From Alphaproteobacteria bacterium (GTDB taxonomy: Bacteria; Pseudomonadota; Alphaproteobacteria; Sphingomonadales; Sphingomonadaceae), in the NCBI GenBank assembly GCA_030431435.1, contig JAUIJI010000018.1:1-33095 (forward strand): DNA of 33,095 nucleotides, given 5' to 3'. Within the stretch, counting starts at the first letter, position 1. The number at the start of each line of letters is the position of its first letter. Shown here piece by piece: positions 10,644 through 14,320 of the stretch. Below the pieces are notes generated by a model that was not told where the DNA came from, ran no database searches, and was given only the letters and a program-made list of their open reading frames with translations. Made by a program: the position numbers and the translations under genes.

Positions 10644-10774
10644 GGGCAAAAGGCATTGCCGCCTTGTGTGCGCCCTGTCCAGCCACCCACTCGCTGAACC
10701 GCGCTTCCACCCACAGCCCGCACGCCTGAAGTTGCGAATGTTACGGTTTCACGAAAAACCAGTGGTGAGAAATG

Positions 10775-10803
10775 CGCAACAATTGTCGCTGTTTTCGCAT
10801 TTG
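10775..10803 (+). repeat. Duplicated 29-bp upstream element, copy 1
   Basis: Follows the pattern CGCAACA-N-TTGTCG-N5-TTCGCA-N-TTG; copy 2 at 11295-11323 has every fixed base at the same spacing (22 of 29). It ends 89 bp upstream of the UrcA-like gene. GAAA precedes the core by two bases (none in copy 2). Its place and spacing suggest a shared activator or repressor site or part of a promoter; I do not recognise the regulator. Confidence 0.6.
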
Positions 10804-10892
10804 AGTTCAGCGATGCTGCAGTGCACAAGAAGGGTGAAGAAAACAAGGGATCACCTGAACAGGACAACAACCCTCAAGTTGGAGTTCGAATC

Positions 10893-11186
10893 ATGAAGAC
10901 CATTCTTTTCGCCACCCTGGCATCGCTTGTCGCCGTTCCGGCAGCTGCGCAGACTGCGCCGATCATCATCTACGATGCCTATCCCGACCGCGTCACCAGC
11001 GCTCCCTCTGCGGCCACCGAGGCCGAGCAGGTGGAGATCGCAGCCAAGGCCGCTTGCGAGGCGCCCTACATCCGCAACCTCAAGGGCCAGCAGCTCTATG
11101 CCGAGTGCCTGGCCGAAGCGCGCGCCGAGGCTGCAGCGATTCTGGCCGAACGCGCACTGGCGGGCACCGAACTGGCGGCCCGCTGA
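10893..11186 (+). CDS. Secreted UrcA-like family protein
   Basis: A 97-residue protein with a signal peptide (MKTILFATLASLVAVPAAAQ, likely cut after residue 20). The mature domain carries two cysteines, Cys55 and Cys72, spaced around IRNLKGQQLYAE. The pattern of one Cys, an Arg-Asn-Leu stretch, a second Cys and an Ala-rich amphipathic helix resembles the UrcA family of small periplasmic proteins common in Sphingomonadales and Caulobacterales, in which two cysteines are conserved. The match is by pattern only. The start at 10893 has GGAG eight bases upstream; an open frame reaches back to 10821 without support. It diverges from guaA and shares a 29-bp upstream element with the next small transcript. 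Confidence 0.65.
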   Translation: MKTILFATLASLVAVPAAAQTAPIIIYDAYPDRVTSAPSAATEAEQVEIAAKAACEAPYIRNLKGQQLYAECLAEARAEAAAILAERALAGTELAAR

Positions 11187-11194
11187 CCGGATTG

Positions 11195-11243
11195 CCGGCA
11201 GGCGGGGCGGGCTCTCTCCTCTCCCTCTCGCTCCGCCTGTCGG
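11195..11243 (+). terminator. Hairpin after the UrcA-like gene, possible terminator
   Basis: An 11-bp arm (11195-11205) pairs with 11233-11243 with one G-T wobble, starting nine bases past the stop codon. The loop is long (27 bases, pyrimidine-rich) and no T run follows. It may be a factor-assisted terminator or a 3' stabiliser; the call is moderate. Confidence 0.35.
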
Positions 11244-11294
11244 TAACATGCTGAAAAGCCGAAGATTTAGCCCCACATGGTGTGTTGCAAGAAA

Positions 11295-11323
11295 CGCAAC
11301 ACTTGTCGAATTCTTCGCAATTG
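11295..11323 (+). repeat. Duplicated 29-bp upstream element, copy 2
   Basis: Second copy of CGCAACA-N-TTGTCG-N5-TTCGCA-N-TTG, ending 80 bp before the first tiny ORF. Here the core overlaps an inverted repeat: GTGTTGC (11282-11288) and GCAACAC (11296-11302). The 22 fixed bases and exact spacing make chance unlikely. Confidence 0.6.
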
Positions 11324-11348
11324 CACAATTTTATTTCGCGCATATTTA
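11321..11348 (+). promoter_or_regulatory. Candidate promoter of the tiny-ORF pair
   Basis: TTGCAC (11321-11326) and TATTTA (11343-11348) with a 16-bp spacer in an AT-rich patch. The -35 begins with the last three bases of the duplicated element, which would place a bound regulator next to RNA polymerase. Copy 1 has TTGAGT in the same place but no clear -10, so a common promoter is not certain. Confidence 0.35.
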
Positions 11349-11403
11349 GCAATCGCACAACGGGGCACCCCCTCTCCCAAGCCCCCACAGGAGCAAGAAA
11401 ACA

Positions 11404-11487
11404 ATGCGCAATATCGCCACTTCCCTCGCCGCCGCTTTCGTCTCGGTCGTGCTCACCGCCAGCACGCTGAACGCGATCATCGTCTGA
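11404..11487 (+). CDS. 27-residue hydrophobic small protein
   Basis: ATG at 11404, 27 codons, TGA at 11485-11487. AGGAG at 11389-11393 is correctly spaced, which supports translation. The peptide starts MRNIATSLAAAFV and is hydrophobic from residue 8 to its IIV end, so it could span the membrane once or resemble a bare signal peptide. It has no Cys and a single basic residue at the N-terminus. I do not recognise it. A second ORF of exactly the same length follows 43 bases later and a strong terminator closes the unit. It could be a membrane micro-protein, a type I toxin-like peptide or a leader peptide. Confidence 0.45.
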   Translation: MRNIATSLAAAFVSVVLTASTLNAIIV

Positions 11488-11530: not shown

Positions 11531-11614
11531 ATGAAGGCACTCGCAAAGAAGATCTTCCTGTCCTACTTCAACAGCGTTTCGCGCCTGCCCTATCCGGCTA
11601 TCTGGATGGTCTGA
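11531..11614 (+). CDS. 27-residue basic small protein
   Basis: ATG at 11531, 27 codons, TGA at 11612-11614. AAAGGA lies nine bases upstream, a good ribosome site. The peptide starts MKALAKKIFLSYF and ends LPYPAIWMV: a basic amphipathic N-terminus, then a Pro/aromatic tail. Like its partner it ends in Val and has 27 residues. No family is recognised. The residue pattern (Lys-rich amphipathic helix plus a hydrophobic tail) would suit a membrane-surface peptide. It is followed 25 bases later by a strong terminator, so the pair seems to be a self-contained transcript and not a gyrB leader. Confidence 0.5.
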   Translation: MKALAKKIFLSYFNSVSRLPYPAIWMV

Positions 11615-11639
11615 GCCGAACCGGACCGGAACCGCTTGA

Positions 11640-14320
<2,681 letters not shown>

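Follow-up and report, generated by a model that had tools for sequence, protein, structure and literature searches.

UrcA-family genes form part of a described regulon in Caulobacter, where UzcR controls urcA. The small RNA (sRNA) ar8/suhB occurs in all Alphaproteobacteria except Rickettsiales; in Caulobacter, its relatives SisA-D have four promoters without a shared motif, and an anti-Shine-Dalgarno 10-mer is described for SisA, as given in the available text of PMC12559287. The transcriptional inputs named for this sRNA come from Sinorhizobium, where it is called MmgR: these are NtrC and AniA/PhaR, and no LysR-type regulator (LTTR) is among them in the available text of the two reports (PMC7143759, PMC12542648). 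In Rhizobiales, one LTTR, VtlR/LsrB, drives the AbcR sRNA and small-protein genes, according to the parts available of PMC8844928 and PMC7486931. In E. coli, GcvA is an LTTR whose gene is divergent from the sRNA gene gcvB; 15-bp dyads are predicted for GcvA at -65 and -43 relative to the start of gcvB, and sites for LysR at -64 and -43 relative to that of lysA (PMC5002191, available text). Divergent LTTR-sRNA pairs are therefore already known from gcvA/gcvB. We found no report in the open-access literature of an LTTR input to suhB/MmgR or of its extension to micropeptide or UrcA genes, and nothing there that joins LysR, ar8/suhB/mmgR and sphingomonads.

We analyzed a stretch of 33,095 nucleotides from an alphaproteobacterium of the Sphingomonadaceae (hereafter, the window), which carries in order guaA(-), an element of 29 bp, an UrcA-like gene, a second copy of the element, tiny ORF 1, tiny ORF 2, a terminator-like hairpin and gyrB. 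We propose, with a probability of about 0.78, that the element combines a LysR-type operator with a sigma-70-type -35, and that its regulator is probably a GcvA-like LTTR, whose ortholog in this genome lies at C155:1550-2425(-). This proposal draws on observed conservation, geometry, linkage and co-occurrence. The candidate system would be an alphaproteobacterial parallel of gcvA/gcvB, with an LTTR of the GcvA-like branch, a divergent sRNA and a possibly similar placement of dyads. It differs from that pair in its operator (TTGC-N7-GCAA here, ATTA-N7-TAAT in E. coli), in its sRNA (ar8/suhB, not GcvB), in an LTTR that scores below the GcvA cut-off, and in counting tiny peptides and UrcA proteins among its further candidate targets. 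RF00519 covers the sRNA under the element as well as MmgR of Sinorhizobium and SisA-D of Caulobacter. The VtlR/LsrB-AbcR system shares the plan of one LTTR for an sRNA and small-protein genes, but with another LTTR, another box and another sRNA family. As in the UrcA/UzcR regulon, UrcA-family genes are among those under the element, although the window protein itself stays below the cut-off of UrcA family TIGR04433 (14.5 bits against 25). With a candidate activator named and its operator defined, ar8/suhB would gain a testable upstream signal in Sphingomonadaceae-type bacteria, and conserved 26-28-aa peptides and UrcA proteins, all of unknown function, would be connected with this sRNA.

The two copies of the element, at 10775-10803(+) and 11295-11323(+), show 0 mismatches over 22 fixed bases, and they precede the first codons (ATGs at 10893 and 11404) by 89 and 80 bp; in both respects the original prediction, made from the letters of the window, was exact. 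In 100 dinucleotide shuffles of the window, no match to the 29-bp pattern appeared at ≤3 mismatches. Searching the whole genome (2.90 Mb in 163 contigs, 90.5% complete) at ≤3 mismatches returned these two copies as the only matches, and the reversed pattern returned 0. The pattern thus lacks the random scatter over the genome that the prediction had named as speaking against it. A search of this kind had been proposed as a way to find a regulon: the targets are indeed UrcA-like and tiny-ORF genes, but the strict pattern gives these two sites only. Allowing 1 mismatch, the 17-bp sub-pattern TTGTCG-N5-TTCGCA occurred 32 times in the genome against 27 for its control, which is not above background, so the information resides in the full element. 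With two sites at ≤3 mismatches and a sub-pattern at control level, a genome-wide regulon defined by the strict pattern is ruled out; the regulon in this genome is compact, because the strict pattern finds these two sites and one diverged site can be added before suhB.

The prediction's 29 bp are real but are part of a longer unit. The true module spans ~55 bp and comprises GTTGC-N7-GCAAC, then TTTCGCAnTTG, whose TTG opens the putative -35, and a putative -10 located 16-17 bp further on. Beyond what had been predicted, copy 2 continues upstream into the perfect dyad GTTGCAAGAAACGCAAC (dyad 1, GTTGC-N7-GCAAC, 11284-11300(+)). Dyad 1 of copy 1 (10764-10780(+)) reads GGTGA-N7-GCAAC, its left half degenerate (GGTGA), so that of the two LysR-type dyads in the window one is perfect and the other retains the right half only. 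The 29 bp of copy 1 hold the right half of dyad 1, dyad 2 and 3 bases of the putative -35. It had likewise not been predicted that the last TTG of the element is the start of this -35, which would be TTGAGT (10801-10806(+), with column conservation in its favor) for the UrcA-like gene and TTGCAC (11321-11326(+)) for the tiny-ORF unit; the corresponding -10 candidates are CACAAG (10824-10829(+)) and TATTTA (11343-11348(+)).

We next quantified column conservation over 98 elements, 51 from the genus and 47 from the family. GTTGC (columns 4-8) is conserved at 0.85-1.00, GCAAC (columns 16-20) at 0.94-1.00, TTCGCA (columns 34-39) at 0.95-1.00, TTG (columns 41-43) at 1.00 and a CAT.T block (columns 64-68) at 0.64-0.92; the elements were gathered with patterns already holding TTCGCA-N-TTG or with few mismatches, so part of this invariance is selection by method. 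The T-N11-A dyad of LysR-type operators is present as TTGC-N7-GCAA at 0.90-1.00 per column, part of it favored by the collecting patterns. We read TTGcAC (columns 41-46) as the probable -35 and the CATATN block as the probable -10. At sRNA-class loci a conserved GCC begins at column 76-77; taking it as the likely transcription start puts the center of the dyad (column 12) at about -64. When the dyad matrix was scored at all offsets, +21 bp came out best after 0 in all four sets, with mean scores negative everywhere and +36 close behind in one of the four sets, while the halves of dyad 2 scored alone did not single out offset 21. Taken at this offset, a degenerate second dyad may be centered at about -43, next to the -35. 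A role for the element as RNA structure was rejected, because it lies upstream of the putative -35 and -10. Long perfect hairpins are exceptions: in four of the 98 elements (L070, L076, L080 and L082), the dyad arms lengthen into perfect inverted repeats of 14-19 bp whose sequences largely differ, whereas one further element reaches 10 bp and all others ≤7. These extended arms look like template-switch correction of a quasi-palindrome.

The element had been judged a selected motif and not a recent duplication, and its distribution among relatives supports that judgment, contrary to the alternative of a motif that relatives lack. Of 37 genus genomes, 34 carry the pattern at ≤3 mismatches, as against 0 of 24 from the order's other families; among the same relatives, its reversed control matched a single time, in one genome. 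We then built a sequence-only profile, R1. The window and 33 genus loci yielded 51 elements, of which 47 went into R1; one UrcA-class element each of L076, L082, L087 and L088 was omitted. R1 matched all 40 genus genomes at E≤0.05, 34 of which had also supplied its training set; for the six others (G006, G017, G022, G256, G257 and G258), best E-values ranged from 3e-17 to 3e-5. Across the family, 117 of the 199 genomes, drawn from 62 of the 96 genera, matched at E≤0.01 (four of the 199 being genus training genomes). Counts across genomes are not corrected for phylogeny. Of 57 matches in the family, we used 50 for reading the targets and 47 for column conservation. Two loci, L136 (G128) and L138 (G250), each hold four tandem elements within ~1.2 kb, one of which precedes a 27-aa ORF in each.

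A large share of the family elements leads into the suhB/MmgR sRNA. Among the 47 family elements, which come from 38 loci, 23 have the suhB core GGCAT[CT]CTCTCC after them, at a constant 80-81 bp from the start of the dyad; a looser definition of the suhB class gives 26 of 47, three of which are leaders of other units. Rfam RF00519 was confirmed in seven of 12 chosen loci, the five without it being genus loci. The window's own genome encodes a suhB/MmgR sRNA at C25:11476-11554 (RF00519, 45.2 bits, above the gathering threshold of 41). The R1 match that ranks next after the two known copies in this genome, at C25:11598-11620 (15.7 bits, E 0.028), is the dyad GTTGCAAAATCCGCAAC in front of this very sRNA: a perfect dyad 80 bp before the core, the same distance as in relatives. 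A second suhB-like candidate of this genome, at C104:1648-1726(+), scores 36.1 bits, below the gathering threshold of 41, and has no core by which to anchor a promoter. At gathering thresholds, Rfam matches nothing in the window, and an sRNA inside it was considered and rejected; two matches stay below threshold (RcsR1, E 0.087; mir-9223, E 0.15).

The candidate regulator emerged from a regex scan of collected loci for the LysR helix-turn-helix. It gave five matches, one of them unrelated; the remaining four represent a single LTTR that neighbors the element in the genomes G127 and G226. The ortholog in the window's genome, which does not adjoin a clear element, is 53 and 61% identical to these two proteins. 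Against PDB chain 8y6u_H, a glycine cleavage system transcriptional activator, it scores 98.6 bits. The nearest profile to the G127 LTTR is that of GcvA (NF008352), at 182.9 bits, below the curated cut-off of 288. Using the G127 LTTR as a query against named genomes, we kept the best 80 of 182 relatives; since these were scored from this query, the named loci are rich in Sphingorhabdus, and they overlap the family genomes (the L226 protein is identical to that of G127). In 33 of the 80 named loci, the LTTR start is preceded, at 51-112 bp and in divergent orientation, by the dyad and TTTCGCAnTTG; each of the 33 has the suhB core 80-81 bp beyond the dyad start. Elsewhere in the named loci, the same dyad regex matched nine times in 850,474 strand-bases. 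The 33 linked loci all belong to a group of 38, L226-L263 (Sphingorhabdus, Parasphingorhabdus, Blastomonas and similar), five of which lack the linkage; it was seen in 0 of the 42 loci L264-L305 (Croceicoccus, Qipengyuania, Erythrobacter, Altererythrobacter and one Novosphingobium), where R1 had no match either. Rfam placed suhB next to the LTTR in nine of 20 scanned loci, nine of 12 in the first group (L226-L263) and 0 of eight in the second (L264-L305).

Linkage and co-occurrence extend over the family. Element and LTTR are divergent at 50-141 bp in at least 17 family genomes, a set that overlaps the named one and in which the matches of G082 and G185 cover the 3' half of R1 only; in G196, a partial element precedes the LTTR and shares its strand. 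Of the 117 element-positive family genomes, 111 carry an LTTR homolog (E≤1e-50), as do 52 of the 82 others (Fisher p 2.7e-8, not corrected for phylogeny), these 52 having the LTTR and no R1 match. Six element-positive genomes lack the LTTR at E≤1e-50 (G067, G152, G192, G193, G219 and G233), two of them ~100% complete (G192 and G219). Within the genus, 39 of 40 genomes have the homolog, and the exception is 70% complete. A test for an autoregulatory dyad at the LTTR gene was non-discriminating (23/30 against 83/150 control windows, and 28/42 against 149/210). Two weak R1 matches, upstream of the LTTR genes of G196 and G032, would be compatible with autoregulation. Upstream of the LTTR in the window's genome (C155), a dyad-like GTTGCATATTTCTGAAC is seen by eye between a CTCGACA-like motif and the LTTR start; by eye, too, L197-L202, L206 and L208 show a dyad-like sequence in the corresponding position, the CTCGACA-like motif being conserved. 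These are possibly autoregulatory sites.

The linkage at 50-141 bp bears on the view that some other regulator, NtrC/NtrX-like, UzcR-like of the OmpR family, or LsrB/VtlR, binds the element and that its proximity to the LTTR is incidental. Such a view could appeal to the control of urcA by UzcR. It could equally appeal to the activation of mmgR by NtrC in S. meliloti and to the activation of sRNA and small-protein genes by LsrB/VtlR, as described in the available text of PMC7143759 and of PMC8844928 and PMC7486931, respectively. We consider it unlikely, however, as it leaves repeated divergent linkage to one LTTR unaccounted for. LsrB/VtlR in particular was rejected: the VtlR/LsrB box GCAT-N3-TG-N3-T (PMC7486931, available text), compared by eye, does not fit the element, and LsrB is reported, in the part available of PMC11975290, from Rhizobiales only.

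Binding of the element by PhaR/AniA in place of an LTTR is a still weaker candidate, and we regard it as very improbable. The window's genome does encode PhaR (152.4 bits, cut-off 109.45), PhaR of S. meliloti binds the mmgR promoter (PMC12542648, available text), and PhaR-like palindromes starting at columns 52-57 occur in part of the promoters studied here. However, YGCRNYGCR, the PhaR core, is spaced differently from GTTGC-N7-GCAAC and sits ~45-50 bp downstream from it, and most tiny-ORF and suhB promoters keep the element without the palindrome. This distribution led us to reject PhaR as the dyad binder; it fits better as a separate second input. That the element is a shared strong promoter or a duplicated leader with no dedicated regulator, as its putative -35 and the adjacency of the two genes might suggest, is barely credible, since GTTGC, GCAAC and TTTCGCA, all upstream of the -35 TTG, are kept across genera while flanks diverge (bases that the collecting patterns favor), and a generic promoter needs no dyad at -64.

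We return to a GcvA-like LTTR as the probable regulator, for which the geometry of the promoter suggests a mechanism. The strong dyad TTGC-N7-GCAA at about -64 would hold the LTTR, and the weak second dyad 21 bp downstream, at about -43 and abutting the -35, would be contacted together with RNA polymerase once a co-inducer is present. The LTTR would be expected to activate three targets: the sRNA, the UrcA-like gene and the tiny-ORF unit with its two peptides. Its gene is unlinked in the window's lineage, where one promoter module is placed before each of these three; in Sphingorhabdus, Parasphingorhabdus, Blastomonas and similar genomes, the LTTR gene is divergent from suhB/MmgR (ar8) and has one intergenic region in common with it, as gcvA has with gcvB in E. 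coli.

A second input is suggested by the PhaR/AniA-like palindrome TGCAGTGCA at 10817-10825(+), which matches the motif given in the available text of PMC12542648 and overlaps the putative -10 of the UrcA-like gene. Near the -10, the PhaR core occurs in 8 of 15 UrcA, 3 of 27 tiny-ORF and 0 of nine other promoters of the genus; shuffles average 0.1-0.4 per set with maxima of 2-3, so that the tiny-ORF count is no more than the best shuffle. In family promoters, it occurs in 5 of 23 suhB and 10 of 24 others. PhaR represses mmgR in Sinorhizobium meliloti (PMC12542648, available text), and by analogy it may repress the promoter of the UrcA-like gene as well. PhaR would then hold this gene down at low storage polymer, a repressive carbon-storage input alongside the LTTR.

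The genes under the element in the genus loci examined are UrcA-like, a tiny ORF or a putative non-coding transcript, in agreement with the two target types originally proposed. The UrcA-like protein of the window (10893-11186(+), 97 aa) has, by eye, a signal-peptide-like N-terminus and has relatives in genus loci; five of seven chosen under-element proteins of relatives (four from the family at large, one from the genus) pass TIGR04433. Family elements also precede ~27-aa ORFs of two types. In the window, tiny ORF 1 (11404-11487(+), 27 aa, hydrophobic) and tiny ORF 2 (11531-11614(+), 27 aa) are followed by the terminator-like hairpin (11639-11672(+), from sequence and fold). In sequence sets chosen by regexes on conserved residues, pN/pS was 0.23 for tiny ORF 1 in 11 sequences of 26 aa and a less clear 0.67 in 12 sequences of 27 aa, and 0.28 for tiny ORF 2 in 10 sequences; this codon comparison favors translation of both.

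The leader of the tiny-ORF unit contains CCTCTCCCAA at 11371-11380(+), its only copy on either strand of the window, with the same letters as the C-rich stretch of the genome's own suhB sRNA. A C-rich core of this kind occurs in 8 of 25 genus leaders, against a mean of 0.5 and a maximum of 3 in shuffles, and the tiny-ORF transcript has a possible dual role as peptide message and RNA. A wider scheme, for some species including this one (with its CCTCTCCCAA at 11371), can be offered with rather low credence: a GcvA-like LTTR would rule a compact regulon in which the anti-Shine-Dalgarno sRNA and the micropeptide mRNAs are parallel arms, an mRNA with CCTCTCCCAA in a leader hairpin would be both message and riboregulator or sponge partner, and PhaR would add carbon-storage status.

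In nine genus genomes (L064, L068, L072, L074, L076, L077, L079, L082 and L089), the element is followed by a transcript of ~125 nt, putatively non-coding and containing a C-rich stretch, which in L068, L074, L076, L082 and L089 lies directly upstream of gyrB. Scanning five of the nine loci placed this transcript in no Rfam family at gathering thresholds, and six loci of these genomes gave two sub-threshold Rfam matches. In a consensus fold of seven of the nine sequences (L074 and L082 left aside), 11 of 34 pairs show compensatory change, and we regard the transcript as a candidate new sRNA.
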